DNA of 64,000 bases, taken from Anaeromyxobacter sp. GTDB lineage: Bacteria > Myxococcota > Myxococcia > Myxococcales > Anaeromyxobacteraceae. Both the position numbers and the translations under genes were made by a program. Below, piece after piece: positions 138-9,255 of this stretch. A model generated the notes under the pieces. That model was not told the origin of the DNA. It saw nothing but the letters and a program-made list of their open reading frames with translations, and did no database searches. The number at the start of each line of letters is the position of its first letter. Position 1 is the first letter of the stretch. Where the stretch lies: NCBI GenBank assembly GCA_025360965.1, contig JANYBC010000065.1, positions 1 through 64,000 on the forward strand, given 5' to 3'.

Positions 138-3100
138 CTAACCGGCGCTCCGGCCCGACGCAGCGGACCGCGCTGCCGCCCGGCGGGCCACCGTCCCCTC
201 CACCACGGCGTAGAGGACGGGCAGCACGAAGAGAGTGAGGGCGGTGGCCGAGACCAGGCCGCCGATGACCACGATGGCGAGCGGCCGCTGGGTCTCGGCG
301 CCGATGGCGCGGGAGAGGGCCGCAGGCAGCAGGCCGAGCGCCGCCAGCAGGGCCGTCATGATCACGGCCCGGAGCCGGGCGCGCGCCCCCGCCACCACCG
401 CCTCGTCGATGCCCTCTCCGGCCCTGCGCCGGGCCTCGACCTCGGAGAGCAGCAGCACGCCGTTCAGCACCGCCTGGCCGATCAGCGCGATGAAGCCGAC
501 CGCCGCCGAGACCGAGAGGTTGGTGCGGGTCAGGAAGAGCGCCACCACTCCGCCGATCAGGGCGAAGGGGATGTTGGCCAGGATCAGCACCGAGGCGCGA
601 AGGTGGCCGAAGGCCTTGAGCAGCAGCAGGAAGATCAGCAGTACCGAGAGGGGGATGACGATGGCCAGCCGCCGCATGGCCCGCTGCTGGTTCACGAACT
701 CGCCGCCCCAGGTGAGGGCGAAGCCGTCGGGGAGGGTCACCGCCCTGGCCACCGCGGCCTGGGCCTCGGCCACGAAGCTGCCCAGGTCGCGGCCCCGCAC
801 GTTCATCTTGATCCCGACGTAGCGCTGGTTGGCCTCGCGGTTGATGGCGGCCCGCCCCTGCCCGATGCGGACGTCGGCCAGCTCGGAGAGCGGGATGGGG
901 GCGCCGTCGGGCGTGGGGACCGCCAGGTCGCGGATGGCGTCGAGCTGCTTCCGGTAGGCCCCCGGGAAGCGCACCGAGACGTCGAAGTGGCGCTCCCCCT
1001 CCCAGAGCTGGGTGGCGGTCTTGCCGCCCAGGGCGGTCTCGATGGCCTCGTCCACGTCGGCCACCGAGATGCCGTAGCGGGCGATCTTCTGGCGGTCGAT
1101 GGCGATCTGCACCTGCGGCAGCTGGCCGGCCTGGATCACCGCCAGGTCGGCCACGCCGGCGACGCCGCCGATGGCGCGGGCCACCTGCTCGGAGAGCTGG
1201 TCGAGCCGGCCCAGGTCGTCGCCGTAGAGCTTCACGGCCACCTGCCCCTTGATGCCGCTGATCCCCTCCTCGACGTTGTCCTTGATGGGCTGGGAGAAGT
1301 TCCAGGCGATGCCGGGCAGGCGGCGCAGCCGGGCGTCCATGGCCTCCACCAGCGCGTCCTTGGAGTGGGCGGTGGTCCAGGTCTCCTCGGGCTTCAGGTC
1401 CACGAAGATCTGCAGGCTGGAGACCGGGGCGGGATCGGTGCCGTCCTCCGGCCGCCCCAGCTGCGCCACCACCGTCTTCACCTCGGGGAACTCCCGCAGC
1501 GCCGCGCGCACCCGCGGCACCATCCGCTGCGCCTCCTCCAGGGAGATCGAGGCCGGCAGCGTGGCCGTCACCCAGAGCGCCCCCTCGTCCAGTTCGGGCA
1601 GGAACTCGGAGCCGAGCGCCGTAGCCAGCGCCAGAGCGCCGGCCAGGGCGGCGGCGGCGCCGGCCAGCACCGCCCGCCGGTGCGACATGGCCCAGCGCAG
1701 CGCCGGGGCGTAGGCCCGCTCGGTGGCGGCCACCACCGGCGAGACCCGCTCCTTCTCGCGGCCCAGCAGCAGCGCCGAGAGGACCGGCACCAGCGTCAGC
1801 GACAGCAGCAGCGCCCCCACCAGCGCGCTGGCCACGGTGTTGGCCATGGGGGCGAAGATCCGCCCCTCGACCCGCTCCAGCGTGAAGATGGGCAGGTAGG
1901 CCACGATGATGATGCCGAGCGAGAACAGCGTGGGACGGGCCACCTCCTGCACGGCCCGCCGCACCACCCCCTGCACCGGCTCGTCGGGGGCCTCGTGGCG
2001 CCGCCGGAAGATGTTCTCCACGATCACCACCGCGCCGTCCACGATGATGCCGAAGTCCACCGCGCCGAGGCTGAGCAGGTTGGCCGACATGTGGCGCAGC
2101 TTCAGGTAGAGGAAGCTGGCCAGCAGCGAGAGCGGGATCACCGACGCCACCACCAGCGCGCCACGCCAGGAGACCAGGGAGACCAGCACCACCACCGTGA
2201 CCAGCGCCGCCCCCTCCAGCAGGTTGCGCAGCACCGTCCTCAGGGTGTGGTCCACCAGGGTGGTCCGGTCGGAGTAGGGGACGACGCGGACGCCCTTGGG
2301 AAGCACCCCGGCGTTGAGCTCGGCCACCTTGCGGTGGACGGCGTCGAGCACGCGGGCCGGGTTCTCGCCCTTGCGCAGCAGCACGATCCCCTCGACCACC
2401 TCGTCCTCGCGGTCGCGGCTCACCTGCCCGCGGCGCGGCACGGCGCCGATGGAGACGCGGGCCAGGTCCCCGACCGTGAGCGGGGTGCCGCCCTTGGCCG
2501 ACACCACCACGTTGCGCACGTCCTCGAGCGAGCCGAGGTAGCCGAGCCCGCGGATCACCATCTCCTCGGGGCCCCTCCGCAGGTAGTTGCCGCCGGCGTT
2601 GGCGTTGGAGTGGGCCAGCGCGTCGAAGACCTGGTGGAGCGTCACGCCCTGCCCCTTGAGCCGCGCCGGGTCGACCTCCACCTGGAACTGGCGCTGGAAT
2701 CCGCCGAAGGAGACCACGTCGGCCACGCCCGGCACCTGGCGGAACTGCCGCTCCAGTACCCAGTCCTGCACCTCGCGCAGCGCCATGGGGGAGCGGCCGG
2801 CCCGCGGATCGGCCTCCAGGACGTAGCGGTAGATCTCGCCGATGGGGGTGTAGAGGGGTCCCAGGCCGGGGGTCACTCCGTCCGGCACCTCCACCTGGCG
2901 GAGCCGCTCGCTCACCTGGCTGCGCGCGAAGAAGTTGTCGGTGCCGTCGGCGAAGGTGACGGTCACCACCGAGAGGCCGTAGATCGAGACCGAGCGCATC
3001 GAGGCCAGCTCGGGGGTGCCGTTCAGCTCCTTCTCGATGGGGAGCGTCACCTGGCGCTCCACCTCCTCGGGGGCGTGGCCCGGGTAGAGGGTGATGACCT

Positions 3101-3242
3101 GGACCTGGGTGTCGGTGACGTCCGGGAAGGCCTCCACCGGGAGCTCGTGGAAGGCCCAGGTGCCGGCCAGGGCGAAGGCGGTGGTGAGCAGGAGCACCGC
3201 CCACTTCTCCTCCAGCGACCAGTCGATGAGCGCGCGGAGCAT
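138..3242 (-). CDS. czcA: CzcA-type heavy-metal efflux RND pump
   Basis: Inner-membrane proton-driven RND pump (1034 aa, normal length) that exports divalent metal cations through a tripartite channel. The N-terminus has the usual first membrane helix (residues about 14-30). Two pore/porter halves and two blocks of hydrophobic helices follow. TM4 carries D396-FGIIVD402-GAVVIVE409-N, the DFGx3DGAx3VEN signature of the Zn/Co/Cd-type (HME) pumps; the Cu/Ag type CusA instead has an AxGx3D pattern. It is the last gene of a minus-strand operon after the outer membrane channel and the adaptor, with 9 bp between the adaptor stop and its ATG. Exact metal specificity cannot be read from sequence. Confidence 0.92.
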   Translation of the reverse strand: MLRALIDWSLEEKWAVLLLTTAFALAGTWAFHELPVEAFPDVTDTQVQVITLYPGHAPEEVERQVTLPIEKELNGTPELASMRSVSIYGLSVVTVTFADGTDNFFARSQVSERLRQVEVPDGVTPGLGPLYTPIGEIYRYVLEADPRAGRSPMALREVQDWVLERQFRQVPGVADVVSFGGFQRQFQVEVDPARLKGQGVTLHQVFDALAHSNANAGGNYLRRGPEEMVIRGLGYLGSLEDVRNVVVSAKGGTPLTVGDLARVSIGAVPRRGQVSRDREDEVVEGIVLLRKGENPARVLDAVHRKVAELNAGVLPKGVRVVPYSDRTTLVDHTLRTVLRNLLEGAALVTVVVLVSLVSWRGALVVASVIPLSLLASFLYLKLRHMSANLLSLGAVDFGIIVDGAVVIVENIFRRRHEAPDEPVQGVVRRAVQEVARPTLFSLGIIIVAYLPIFTLERVEGRIFAPMANTVASALVGALLLSLTLVPVLSALLLGREKERVSPVVAATERAYAPALRWAMSHRRAVLAGAAAALAGALALATALGSEFLPELDEGALWVTATLPASISLEEAQRMVPRVRAALREFPEVKTVVAQLGRPEDGTDPAPVSSLQIFVDLKPEETWTTAHSKDALVEAMDARLRRLPGIAWNFSQPIKDNVEEGISGIKGQVAVKLYGDDLGRLDQLSEQVARAIGGVAGVADLAVIQAGQLPQVQIAIDRQKIARYGISVADVDEAIETALGGKTATQLWEGERHFDVSVRFPGAYRKQLDAIRDLAVPTPDGAPIPLSELADVRIGQGRAAINREANQRYVGIKMNVRGRDLGSFVAEAQAAVARAVTLPDGFALTWGGEFVNQQRAMRRLAIVIPLSVLLIFLLLLKAFGHLRASVLILANIPFALIGGVVALFLTRTNLSVSAAVGFIALIGQAVLNGVLLLSEVEARRRAGEGIDEAVVAGARARLRAVIMTALLAALGLLPAALSRAIGAETQRPLAIVVIGGLVSATALTLFVLPVLYAVVEGTVARRAAARSAASGRSAG

Positions 3243-3251
3243 GGAGGGTCC

Positions 3252-4382
3252 TCAGGGACCTTCGATGGCGGTCTTCAGGTAGAGCGCGCCGTCGATGACC
3301 ACCTGGTCGCCGGACGCCAGCCCGGCCAGCACCCGGATCCGCCCGTCCTGCTCGGCGCCGGCCTCGATGGTCCGCTTCTGGAAGCGCCCCCCGCCCAGCG
3401 CCAACACCACGGCGCTGCTGTCCCCGTCGGAGAGCACCGCCGAGGAGGGGACGCTCAGCGACGGCGTCGCGGCGGCCGTCCCCCGGACCAGCACCCGCGC
3501 GAACATCTCCGGCTTGAGCTCCAGCTTCGAGTTGTCCACCTCGATGCGCAGCTTCACCGTCCGCGTGGCCGGGTCGACCAGCTCGCCGACATGGGTCACC
3601 GTCCCTTCCCAGGACCGGGCCGGGCTCGAGGTCACCCGCACCGTCGCCTTCTGCCCCTTGGCGACGCGCCCCAGGTCGCGCTCGTAGACGTCGGCCAGCA
3701 CCCAGAGCCTGGTCAGGTCGGCCACCGTCACCAGCGGCGTCCCGGCGTCGGGGCGCACCTCCATCCCCGGGAAGGCCGGCCGCTCCACCACCACCCCCTC
3801 GATGGGCGCACGCAGCACGAAGCGGGCGCCACGGGCCTCGGGGGCCGCCTCGTCGATCCCGAGCACCTCGAGGCGGGAGGCGGCGCGGGCCAGGGCCGCG
3901 GCCGCCTTGGTGGCGTCGGCCTCCGCCTGCTGCACGTCCTTGCCGGGCACCGCCTGCTCGGCGTAGAGCCGCTTGACCCGCTCCAGGTTCCGCCTCGCCA
4001 CCGCGAGGTCCGACTGGGTCGCCACGTGATCGGCCACGGCCGCCTGCGCGTCGGGTGAGGCGATCACCAGCAGCCCTTGCCCACGCTTCACCCGGTCGCC
4101 CGGGTGGGCCAGCAGCTCCACCACGCGCCCCGAGACCGGCGAGGAGATGCGCGAGACCCGCTCCTCGTCGAAGCCCACCTTGCCGGTGGCGGAGGTGGCG
4201 CTCGCCTCGGTGGCCAGCTCCACCGGCCCGACCTTGATGAAGTCCGGGACCTCGGAGAGCCGCAGCTCCCCTGGGGGCGCCGCGGTGGGGGCCGCCGCCG
4301 CCGGGACCTCGGGCTTCCTGGTGCAGCTCGCCAGCGCCAGCGCCAGCGCCAGCGGCACGCCCATCCGTCCCATCCGCCTCAT
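3252..4382 (-). CDS. RND efflux periplasmic adaptor lipoprotein (CzcB/CusB type)
   Basis: Membrane fusion protein (376 aa) linking the CzcA-type pump to the outer membrane channel. The chosen ATG at 4382-4380 opens a basic n-region, a hydrophobic stretch and a lipobox-like LASC with the cysteine at residue 20, so the mature protein is probably lipid anchored. A barrel-sandwich/lipoyl-like half (FDEERVSRISSPVSGRV), a central helical hairpin (about residues 110-160), the second lipoyl half (LRAPIEGVVVERP) and C-terminal beta domains follow in the usual order. The frame stays open far upstream, but that part is antisense to the channel gene and is not coding. It lies 53 bp after the channel gene. 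Confidence 0.9.
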   Translation of the reverse strand: MRRMGRMGVPLALALALASCTRKPEVPAAAAPTAAPPGELRLSEVPDFIKVGPVELATEASATSATGKVGFDEERVSRISSPVSGRVVELLAHPGDRVKRGQGLLVIASPDAQAAVADHVATQSDLAVARRNLERVKRLYAEQAVPGKDVQQAEADATKAAAALARAASRLEVLGIDEAAPEARGARFVLRAPIEGVVVERPAFPGMEVRPDAGTPLVTVADLTRLWVLADVYERDLGRVAKGQKATVRVTSSPARSWEGTVTHVGELVDPATRTVKLRIEVDNSKLELKPEMFARVLVRGTAAATPSLSVPSSAVLSDGDSSAVVLALGGGRFQKRTIEAGAEQDGRIRVLAGLASGDQVVIDGALYLKTAIEGP

Positions 4383-4435
4383 GACGCGTCCTCCAGCACC
4401 GGGTGGCCCGCGACCTTCTCCAGCTCGAAGGCCGC

Positions 4436-5752
4436 CTAGCGGAGCTCGAACTGCGTGTCGAGGTAGTCTCCGCGCAGCTCGACCCAGGTCCGCTCGGCCT
4501 CGAGGTACTCGAGGAGGCTCCGGTCGCCGGCGCGCCAGGTCTTCTCCGCCACCGCCAGCGCCCGGTCGGCCCGCTGCAGCGCCCCGCCGTCGTAGCGGGC
4601 CACCTTGTCGGCGGCGGCCCGGTAGCGGGCCAGCGCCGCGGCGACCTCGCGGGCCACCCGGGCCTGGAGGGCGGCGACGGCCCGCTCGCTCCGCTCCGCC
4701 TCGGCCGAGGCCCTGGCGATCTCGCCCTGGTTGCGGTGGAAGAGCGGGAGCGGGACCGAGAAGGTGAGGGCCAGCGAGTCGGGGTTGTCGCCGACGACGA
4801 CGGCCCTGGAGCGGGTGTAGCCGATCCCCAGCGTGACGTCGGGGACGGCCTGGGCGTCGGCGAGGCTGGCCGCGGCGCGCGCCGCCTCGGCCTGGGCGCG
4901 CGCGGCGCGGACGTCGGTCCGCTCCTCCGCGGCGCGCTGCACCAGCCGGGCCTCGTCGAGCGGCGGCGGGCGGATGGTCAGGTCGCCGCGCACCTCGACG
5001 TCGGGAGGCGAGGTCGGGCCGACCAGCGCCAGCAGCCCGGCCACGGCGCTGCGCTCGGTGGCCACCGCGTCGGCGAGATCGTTCTGCTGCTTCATGGCCT
5101 CCAGCTCGACCTTCTCGAAGTCGGCCCGGGAGATGTCCTCGGCGTCGAGCCGGGCCCTGCTGATGCGGAGGGTCTCGGCGGAGCGGCCGGTCACCTGCTC
5201 GGCGAGCAGCCGGCGGGCGCGGGCACGGACGGCCGACCAGAAGGCGGTGCGCAGCTCGAAGAGGGCGGTGCGCCGGGCGTCGGCGGTGCCAGCCACCGCG
5301 CCGGCGAGGGCGGCGCGCGCATGGGACTGCCGCTTGCCGCGCTTGCCGCCCAGCTCCAGCAGCTGGTCCACCCCGACCGAGGTGACCAGGTTCTTTGACC
5401 AGCCAGGACCGTTCCCGGTCGGTGGCGGGTTGGTGGTGATGGGGAGGTTGGCGGCGGAGAGCGAGAGGTTCGGATTGGGGATCAGCCCGGCCTGGACCAG
5501 GTCGCCGCGGGCCCCCGCCTCGGCGGCGCGGGCGTCGGCCAGCACCTGGCTGCCGCGCTCGAAGGCGGCCAGCGCGTCGGCCTCGGTCCACGGGACCGGG
5601 GCCGGGGCCGCGGCCGGCTCGGCGGCGCCGAGCAGCAGGGCGAAGGAGAGGGTGAGGAGCGGGTCCACGCCCGGTGGCCACCGCAAGGGGCGGGCCAGGC
5701 GGTGGGGCCCCGGATCCCGGGGGGTTGCGAGGGCGGAGGCGACGAGCCTCAC
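4436..5752 (-). CDS. TolC-like outer membrane efflux protein
   Basis: Outer membrane channel of the metal efflux system (438 aa from GTG at 5752, or 410 aa from GTG at 5668). Two TolC-type repeats with long amphipathic helices are visible (for example around LRTAFWSAVRARARRLLAEQ). The C-terminus ends LDTQFELR. The start is uncertain. The shorter form begins right before the hydrophobic signal segment LLTLSFALLLG. A sigma-54 promoter candidate at 5761-5776 would start transcription near 5750, at or after the longer start codon, which also favours 5668. Neither start has a clear Shine-Dalgarno. It is the first gene of the channel-adaptor-pump operon. Confidence 0.88.
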   Translation of the reverse strand: MRLVASALATPRDPGPHRLARPLRWPPGVDPLLTLSFALLLGAAEPAAAPAPVPWTEADALAAFERGSQVLADARAAEAGARGDLVQAGLIPNPNLSLSAANLPITTNPPPTGNGPGWSKNLVTSVGVDQLLELGGKRGKRQSHARAALAGAVAGTADARRTALFELRTAFWSAVRARARRLLAEQVTGRSAETLRISRARLDAEDISRADFEKVELEAMKQQNDLADAVATERSAVAGLLALVGPTSPPDVEVRGDLTIRPPPLDEARLVQRAAEERTDVRAARAQAEAARAAASLADAQAVPDVTLGIGYTRSRAVVVGDNPDSLALTFSVPLPLFHRNQGEIARASAEAERSERAVAALQARVAREVAAALARYRAAADKVARYDGGALQRADRALAVAEKTWRAGDRSLLEYLEAERTWVELRGDYLDTQFELR

Positions 5753-5760
5753 AAGGATCT

Positions 5761-5776
5761 TGCAGGGGCCAGGCCA
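5761..5776 (-). promoter_or_regulatory. Candidate sigma-54 (-24/-12) promoter for the metal efflux operon
   Basis: On the minus strand TGGCCTGGCCCCTGCA fits the sigma-54 layout TGGC...TGCA with invariant GG and GC separated by exactly 10 bases. It sits in the 39-bp gap between the sigma-54 activator gene and the efflux operon and points into the operon. The predicted transcription start is near 5750. The match to consensus is seen; its use by the adjacent regulator is inferred. Confidence 0.55.
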
Positions 5777-5791
5777 CCCCCCGCAAGGATC

Positions 5792-7185
<1,394 letters not shown>

Positions 7186-7189
<4 letters not shown>

Positions 7190-8793
7190 GCGGCACCTCG
7201 CGAGGGGAGGAGGACGCGAAAGACCATCCCTCCGCCCTGCCTGTCGACCGCCTCGATGGTTCCTCCGTGGGCCTCCACCACGCGCCGCACGATGACCAGG
7301 CCGAGCCCGGTCCCGGTCCGCTTGGTGGTGACGAACGGCTCGAAGAGCCGGTCCCGTACCTCCGGCGCCAGGCCGGCGCCGCGGTCGGCCACCTCCAGCA
7401 TGGTGAGCTCGCCGGCAGGGCGGAGCGCCAGCTCCACCACCCGCTCCCCGGCCGGCCGCGGGTCATCCAGCCCCTCGCCGAAGGCGCCGGGCCCCGTCGC
7501 CTCGATGGCGTTGCGCAGCAGGTTGACGAGGACGCCCAGCAGCTTCGGCCCGTCGGCGCAAAGCCGGACCGGTCCCGCCGGCAGGTCGAGGCGCACCGAG
7601 ACGCCGAAGTCCTCGGCCAGCTCGGTGACGGCGTTGCCGGCGTCGCGCCCCAGCCCGGCCAGGTCGAGGTCGCCCAGCACCAGCCGCGGGGTGGCGGCGA
7701 AGAGGGTCAGGTCGTCGGCCACGTCGCGGAGCCGGGAGATCTCGGCGCGAGTCCGGTGGTGCACCGACGCCAGCGCCTCCAGGCTGGCGCCGCCCCGCGC
7801 CAGGAGGTCGACGCCGACCGAGAGGCCGTTGAGGGCGTTCTTCACCTCGTGGGCGATGGCGGCGGCGGTCTTCCCCATGGCGGCCAGGCTCTGCGCCCGC
7901 GCCAGCTCCAGCTCGGCCCGCTCCAGCCGCCGGACCAGCACCGCCATCAGGGAGCCGGCGGCCACCACCAGCAGGAAGGCCACCACCACCAGCGCCACCA
8001 GCTTCCGGAACGGGACCGCCAGCTCCCCCTCCACCTCGCCGGCGGAGAGGATCAGGCGCATCCGCAAGCCGGTCGAGCCGACCTCGGCCTCGGTCACCAG
8101 CCAGCGCCTCAAGGATTCATCCTCGAGCCAGGCCTGCCCTGGGCCGGCGAGCCTGAGCGGCGGCGGCGCCTGGCCGGCCGTGACCTCGGCGACCAGGACG
8201 GAGCCCTCGCGGGGACCCGGCTCGACCAGCGCCACGGCGCCATGCTCCCGGAGCGAGCGCCGCAGGGCGGCTCCGAAGAGGTCGCGCCCGCCGCGCCCGT
8301 CGATGACCGCCACCACGGCGCCCCGGCCGGCCACCGGCGCCGCCACGTCGATCTCTCCGTCGACGACGTGGACCACGGTCCGTCCCAGGCCGCGCGCCAG
8401 GCCGACCAGCGCCGGCCCAGAGGCCCGGGGGCGGGCCTCCCGCGGCTCGGCCCAGGCCACCTCGCCGTGCTCGTCGAGCAGGACGATGGTCACCGAGAAG
8501 ACGCCGCTGTCGCGGCGTGCGGCGCGGAGCACGCGCTTCTCGGGCTCCAGCGTGCCGTCGGCCAGATCGATGTCGGCCAGCCTGGAGAGCCGCCCGATCT
8601 CCCGCTCCAGACCCTCGAGCTCATCGGAGAACTGGCGGGCGCGGGCCTCGAGCAGGAGCTGCTCCCGGTCGGCGGCGGCGGCGAGCGCCGCCTCCTGGAA
8701 CTGCCAGAGCAGGAGCGAGCCGACCAGCCCCACGCCGGCCGCGGCCAAGCCTGACAGGGCAAAGACGAGACGACCTGAGCGGGAGAACTGCAC
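7186..8793 (-). CDS. Sensor histidine kinase
   Basis: Membrane sensor kinase (535 aa) paired with the sigma-54 response regulator that overlaps its 3' end. A GTG start opens TM1 (residues about 12-31), then a periplasmic sensor region of about 230 residues, TM2 at about 265-287, a HisKA H-box AAIAHEVKNALNG with H315, an N-box (NLLRNAIEAT) and G-boxes (DRGAGLAPEV, GTGLGLVIV). The extracytoplasmic region has a coiled first part but no obvious metal-binding histidine or cysteine cluster. This differs from ZraS-type zinc sensors, so the ligand is unknown. The 138-bp region upstream separates it from a divergent gene. Confidence 0.9.
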
Positions 8794-8931: not shown

Positions 8932-9255
8932 GTGAGCGTCGCCATCCGGTCCCTGGCCTGCGTGGTCTTGATGGCCGTGGCGCTCCCCGCGGTGACCGCC
9001 GGGGAGGTGGCGCGCCGACCGCTGGAGGACAACAGCTTCCTCCTCGAGGAGGCCTACAACCAGGAGGCCGGAGTGGTGCAGCAGATCGGCACCTTCCTGC
9101 GCGGCCGGGGGGGCGCCTGGGTCGCCTCCTTCACGCAGGAGTGGCCGGTCCCGGGGATCGAGCACCCGCTCAGCTACACGCTCACCTGCGGGCAGGCCGG
9201 TCCCGGCGGCGAGCGCTCGGTCTTCCTCTACCTCTCGGTGGAGGCGCCCTTCTGA
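8932..9255 (+). pseudogene. Exported protein, probably an internally deleted outer membrane barrel
   Basis: A GTG at 8932 opens a 107-codon frame. It has a signal peptide (ending near PAVTAGE) followed by NSFLLEEAYNQEAGVVQQI and FTQEWPVPG...LSYTL. From memory this resembles the N-terminus of putative transporter barrels of about 250-300 residues. After LSYTL the sequence jumps to a short tail ending SVFLYLSVEAPF, with the alternating pattern and terminal Phe of an outer membrane barrel end. The simplest reading is that the middle was lost in frame while both ends survived. It could instead be a genuinely small secreted protein. A weak GG-N10-GC element lies at 8898-8911. Divergent from the sensor kinase. 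Confidence 0.5.

Follow-up and report, generated by a model that had tools for sequence, protein, structure and literature searches.

Predicted sigma-54 control of a CzcCBA-type metal pump by an adjacent kinase/NtrC-type pair in Anaeromyxobacter

In the 64,000-nucleotide stretch of DNA analyzed here (the window; contig JANYBC010000065.1 of an Anaeromyxobacter sp. genome of 3.83 Mb in 259 contigs), the genes for a sensor histidine kinase, an NtrC-type response regulator and the components of a metal efflux pump all lie on the minus strand, which raises the question of whether the pair switches on the pump and, if so, from which promoter. The kinase (7186–8793) contains a HATPase_c domain and a weak HisKA domain and is ZraS-like, although far under the cut-off of the NCBIfam ZraS family (109 bits against 479). 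In the model of its sensor region, which is of low confidence (mean pLDDT 54.7), the order of strands and helices gives at most a hint of a double Cache domain. Divergent from the kinase, there is a short open reading frame (8932–9255, plus strand) that has no Pfam match. The regulator (5792–7189) has the architecture of an NtrC-type activator, that is, a receiver, a sigma-54 AAA+ domain and a Fis-type helix-turn-helix, the latter with an SYPTV helix; it scores 328 bits against NCBIfam ZraR, below the cut-off of 760, and 248 bits against the ZraR chain 1ojl. Its loop reads GAFTDA, identically in 13 of 13 aligned regulators, where the loop looked for in an NtrC-type activator is GAFTGA; GAFTDA is among the loop variants expected to keep activation according to excerpts of PMC4641369. 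A gap of 123 bp separates the regulator from an outer-membrane channel gene of the OEP type (CzcC-like; 4436–5668, start GTG 5668) on the same strand, followed by a periplasmic adaptor (HlyD/CzcB-like; about 3252–4391) and an RND pump of the CusA/CzcA family (138–3242). The pump passes the cut-off of TIGR00914 (CusA/CzcA) with 1053 bits against 701 and, among solved structures, is closest to ZneA (4k0e, 897 bits; CusA, 595 bits), a similarity that points to zinc or other divalent metals as the probable substrate of a predicted metal exporter. The source genome contains a single match to rpoN.

The preliminary description placed a sigma-54 promoter in the gap at 5761–5776 (minus strand, TGGCCTGGCCCCTGCA), and a motif oriented toward the efflux genes and close to the end of the activator gene is indeed found there, with 15 bp between it and the regulator open reading frame. 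The GG-N10-GC spacing cited in its favor is present as well but is uninformative in this GC-rich window, where it occurs 2220 times compared to 2157 (sd 43) in shuffles; taken alone, it was rejected as promoter evidence. The pattern TGGCN7YTGC occurs 18 times, with 7.7 expected. When the window was scored with a hand-written sigma-54 weight matrix, only 2 of its 127,970 positions had 13.4 bits or more, namely, 5682–5697 (13.9) and 5761–5776 (13.4), and both fall in the one 123-bp gap between the regulator and the channel, which hints at a real promoter there. The two scores are too similar to separate these positions; conservation does so. The two nearest syntenic relatives, L033 (which we take to be Anaeromyxobacter oryzae; L159 covers the same place) and L037, each have one strong -24/-12 site between the two genes, followed at a distance of 28 nt by the single upstream codon at which the channel gene could start. 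These sites are the counterparts of 5682–5697 (minus strand, TGGCCCGCCCCTTGCG), where the distance from the motif start to GTG 5668 is 29 nt; 5761–5776 has no counterpart in either relative. The pattern TGGCNCGN4TTGC occurs only once in the window, at 5683–5697 (0.25 expected; 22 of 100 shuffled windows contain it at least once). Compared by eye with the consensus TGGCACG-N4-TTGC(T/A), as given in the consulted portion of PMC9765219, 5682–5697 matches 10 of the 12 defined letters and 5761–5776 matches 9. Thus, the better supported prediction for the promoter of the pump operon is 5682–5697, about 80 bases away from the position originally proposed, which the comparison does not support.

Among the 36 loci with a recognizable channel gene, the window included, 29 carry a site scoring 9 bits or more within the 500 bp before the channel, and 7 do not (L038 and L098–L103); L038 retains the order of regulator and channel and yet has no sigma-54 site. 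In L097, L098, L100, L102 and L103, the channel gene is preceded by TGGC-N7-[TG]TG[GA]A, in which G or A replaces the C of the -12 element, the -24 half is kept and the usual 28–30 nt separate the motif from the start. These sites possibly represent a variant -12 class; in the last four of these loci, the motifs reach only 4.4–6.9 bits at positions picked post hoc.

Alignment of the loci on the promoter revealed repeated copies of a dyad with the consensus CTKMAAG-N3-CTTKMAG, such that the upstream dyad expected of an NtrC-type activator is conserved. An enhancer model built from 60 sites in 28 loci, with the window excluded from training, ranks 5749–5765 (minus strand, CTGCAAGATCCTTGTGA; the 17-bp dyad CTGCAAG-ATC-CTTGTGA) first in the 64 kb at 13.1 bits, the next site scoring 12.5, and a model from family f4 only again places it on top (11.9 bits; next, 11.1). 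Given these small margins, the position of the dyad is its telling feature; many other loci reach 17–25 bits. The f4-only model yields 23.5 bits in L037, 21.7 in L042, 15.4 in L038 and 14.9 in L074, with weak sites in L033 (7.5) and L040 (4.1). These two are also weak in the window-free model (9.1 and below 7 bits, respectively), L076, L086 and L105 score only 10.5–12.4 bits, and L095 has no site of at least 7 bits in that model. Scores of at least 17 bits occur at 42 of 6,160 positions in the upstream windows, training sites counted; outside the training windows, 5 of 475,270 positions score as high. Of the 8 outside matches with at least 16 bits, 7 immediately precede the channel gene of L098 and L100–L103, all held out. 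A tentative second copy in the window (TCGTAGGATCCTTGCGG, 5781–5797, minus strand), recognized by eye and scoring below 7 bits, overlaps the regulator stop. Activator sites had previously been expected inside the coding sequence of the regulator; instead, the scored site, 5749–5765, which looks like the main predicted activator site, is intergenic and overlaps the initially claimed promoter. The shared bases, 5761–5765, are the origin of the apparent -12 element, CTGCA, of that motif.

A search of 145 genomes of the order yielded close regulator orthologs (55–76% identity) in 13, including the source genome; a phylum set of 195 genomes added none. The kinase adjoins the regulator in all 12 other ortholog loci. 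Of these loci, 3 (L033, L037 and L038, with the RND gene matched in the first two) have the channel and adaptor genes next in line on the same strand, pump genes occur near the regulator in another arrangement in 4 (L040–L043), and no pump genes were found within the stretch examined in 5 (L032, L034–L036 and L039). Beyond the window, G022 and G005, 46 pump places were listed, of which the 40 stretches examined cover 41; those in G071, G102, G107, G110 and G124 were left out of the comparison. The order regulator-channel-adaptor-pump recurs in many of these stretches, and the arrangement of enhancer, -24/-12 promoter and pump recurs across the order.

When the regulator alignment (patterns ATAY.. 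and SYPTV..) was used to scan GTDB contigs, 18 loci emerged, nine of which, together with L177 (upstream of L041), provided ten loci with previously unseen promoter regions for a later test. Four of the ten (L163, L165, L171 and L177) have pump genes, a complete promoter region and a regulator of this group, and in all four, the first pump gene is preceded by an enhancer scoring 16 bits or more and then by a -24/-12 site of 13.7–17.0 bits: enhancers of 17.8 and 16.1 bits with a promoter of 13.7 in L163, 20.9 and 12.1 with 15.8 in L165, 18.6 with 16.5 in L171, where the contig ends within the regulator and short of its helix, and 20.0 and 16.5 with 17.0 in L177. L170, L173 and L175 contain the regulator but no recognized pump and no enhancer/promoter pair, and no dyad occurs in L174, where a pump is accompanied by a regulator that is more distant. 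The remaining loci, L172 and L176, are distant; the enhancer model gives 25 matches of at least 11 bits in L172 and is therefore uninformative there. The regulators that have no recognized pump alongside (L032, L034, L035, L036, L039, L170 and L173) count against control of the pump by such a regulator. In L163 and L165, the gene order is RND, channel, adaptor, and the promoter stays before whichever gene leads. The enhancer and promoter of L163 are separated by a long inverted repeat (about 7425–7516), with approximately GATAACAAGCGGACTTAACT at one end and the complementary sequence at the other, which may be a small inserted element. On the minus strand of L032, a dyad (7371–7387, 11.9 bits) and a -24/-12 site (at 7308, 13.9 bits) are located before a gene labeled by eye as DedA-like.

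The regulators next to the dyad carry a recognition helix of the type G[LIV][SA][YHP][PA]T. Ten regulators with a TLYRK-type helix (L099, L104 and L106–L113) are found near similar pumps, and none of these loci has a dyad above 10.9 bits. Nine of the ten form one clade in the regulator tree and accordingly represent few independent events; this tree is rooted for drawing only, with long branches flagged, and its label n denotes that no strong site was found or that no pump lies beside the regulator. Taken together, the recurrent order of enhancer, promoter and pump, the four of four later regions and the TLYRK regulators without an enhancer make sigma-54 control of the CzcA-type pump by the adjacent kinase/NtrC-type pair, as initially suspected, very likely on comparative grounds.

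Three other explanations of the gap have to be weighed against this reading. If 5761–5776 were the promoter, or a second, minor one, transcription would start near 5750, leaving an 82-nt leader before GTG 5668. The second-best matrix score among all window positions speaks for this possibility, but the absence of a counterpart in L033 and L037, the chance-level frequency of the GG-N10-GC spacing and the 5-bp overlap with the enhancer, because of which polymerase and activator would compete, render it unlikely. A different account starts from the hairpin-like inverted repeat past the regulator stop (5754–5793, minus strand), which is built from the two palindromic sites and folds at -25.4 kcal/mol (z -2.2; equaled in 4 of 200 shuffles): this could be the terminator of the regulator, with the pump transcribed from another, perhaps sigma-70, promoter and the -24/-12 motif present by chance, as the 22 shuffles containing TGGCNCGN4TTGC would allow. 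However, no run of T follows the hairpin, this hairpin is absent from relatives that do carry the palindromes, and in several families the spacing between the -24/-12 site and the start is nearly constant, so we regard this account as quite improbable.

Least probable of all, in our estimate, is a pump that lacks its own regulated promoter and is transcribed solely by read-through from the kinase-regulator operon. The common strand and the gap of only 123 bp would fit such a scheme, but the signals persist where the genes are rearranged: the -24/-12 site before the channel gene is kept along with a strong enhancer in L042 and L171, where the pump is divergent from the kinase, and in L177, where the pump precedes it, and the -24/-12 site is also kept in L040, where the pump is on the opposite strand and further off.

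The position of the predicted promoter at 5682–5697 bears on the start of the channel gene, for which the preliminary description preferred 5668 over 5752. Both the promoter and the relatives agree with this choice, given that the other in-frame starts, TTG 5686 and GTG 5752, are within or before the promoter and that L033 and L037 have a single upstream start at the matching place. Judging from the -12 element, transcription would begin at 5671 (minus strand, within about 2 nt), with a 3-nt leader, such that GTG 5668 would be almost the first codon of the message. Across 33 loci, the first in-frame start is 28–31 nt past the motif start in 12 and 44–57 nt past it in 19, with 2 ambiguous cases (L042, GTG at 23 or ATG at 32; L105, TTG at 24 or ATG at 30); in four later loci, the distances are 28, 31, 33 and 35 nt. 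At random upstream points, a distance of 26–32 nt occurs in 476 of 5,463 cases (8.7%). The start codon 28–35 nt after the motif start in 16 loci implies leaders of 2–9 nt. Four of these (L098, L100, L102 and L103) are weaker evidence because their motifs were chosen among weak matches; the remaining 12 (8 from the first set and the 4 later ones) belong to families f1, f4, f7 and f9 and two further MAGs, although many rows are related, so that these counts are not independent events. By eye, a GGAG-type sequence is present in the leader of the 44–57 nt group, and the 28–31 nt group has no room for one.

The new element would thus be near-leaderless transcription, predicted from promoter position. 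We lean slightly toward the view that, in at least four families of the order, these pump promoters belong to a conserved near-leaderless class, with the start codon at about +3 to +10 and no room for a ribosome-binding site, to which leaderless initiation under metal stress may apply; a related group, most of family f4, instead appears to have an 18–31 nt leader with a GGAG-type site. According to selected text of PMC3616915, leaderless messages in E. coli are translated inefficiently from non-AUG starts, and the GTG start of the window channel gene counts against the leaderless reading. The signal peptides of the near-leaderless channels begin with almost no basic residues (for example, VDPLLTLSFALLLG; window 5668, L033, L040, L076, L086, L095, L097, L098, L100, L102 and L103); those of the leadered group mostly have VRR or LRR at the start.

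Within the source genome, a mismatch pattern of the dyad proved too loose for finding further targets (494 forward matches and 326 in the reversed control) and was rejected. The exact pattern YGGCNCGN4TTGC occurs 41 times compared to 24 for the reversed control. Among the 30 of these 41 places that were examined as loci, the best dyad does not exceed 8.4 bits, except in the window (13.1) and in L156 (12.8), where it is about 1.2 kb from the -24/-12 site. A long-frame start 26–35 nt after the motif was found, besides the window, only in L157 (29 nt), where the frame is open far upstream and the spacing is perhaps due to chance; in L145, the distance is 36 nt. Hence the near-leaderless spacing is not general in this genome.

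From sequence comparison, which supplies the gene order, the promoter, the enhancer, the match between regulator group and enhancer and the start spacing, we infer the following mechanism. The kinase would sense a periplasmic signal, probably metal, and phosphorylate the regulator, which would bind the dyad at 5749–5765 and contact the RNA polymerase-sigma-54 complex at 5682–5697, about 60 bp downstream. Transcription would then begin near 5671, yielding a near-leaderless message with GTG 5668 nearly as its first codon. For the reading as a whole, in which a ZraSR-like pair activates the neighboring CzcCBA-type metal pump by way of sigma-54, we estimate a probability of about 0.8.

A literature search, with subscription papers mostly outside its reach, found no paper dealing with the enhancer, with the regulator group or with metal promoters that are both sigma-54-dependent and leaderless; the terms 'czca' and 'leaderless' are absent from the accessible part of the sigma-54 regulon survey PMC12316311, which states that Myxococcus xanthus does not survive deletion of rpoN, and C. 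metallidurans is covered in PMC9045368, as far as its available sections go. The regulator group, the 17-bp site and the promoter together define a testable regulon for myxobacterial metal efflux. They also raise the question of how translation begins on a leaderless message whose synthesis is strictly controlled by sigma-54, and the same promoter exists in two natural versions, with and without a leader, that are open to comparison.

Among known systems, ZraSR (HydHG) of E. coli and Salmonella, a sigma-54-dependent zinc and envelope stress system, similarly links a membrane kinase and an NtrC-type sigma-54 activator to metal stress, but the gene linked to it is zraP, whereas here the linked genes encode a CzcCBA-type pump. 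The CzcCBA and ZneCBA systems share the channel, adaptor and RND pump with this locus; however, the known czc and zne operons are generally under OmpR-type regulators, in contrast to the NtrC-type activator found here. The predicted enhancer has the size and geometry of the NtrC site, a 17-bp dyad with 7-3-7 spacing, but differs in its sequence, CTKMAAG-N3-CTTKMAG. Nla28 of Myxococcus xanthus, likewise the sigma-54 activator of a two-component system in a myxobacterium, also has repeated upstream sites, but its half-site, in the consulted portion of PMC9765219, is CT[C/G]CG[C/G]AG. Finally, the 3-nt leader predicted for the window channel gene is within the range for leaderless mRNAs in the available text of PMC4842269 (0–10 nt) and PMC7563307 (<5 nt); the motif described in that portion of PMC4842269 is an extended -10 box, unlike the -24/-12 promoter predicted here.
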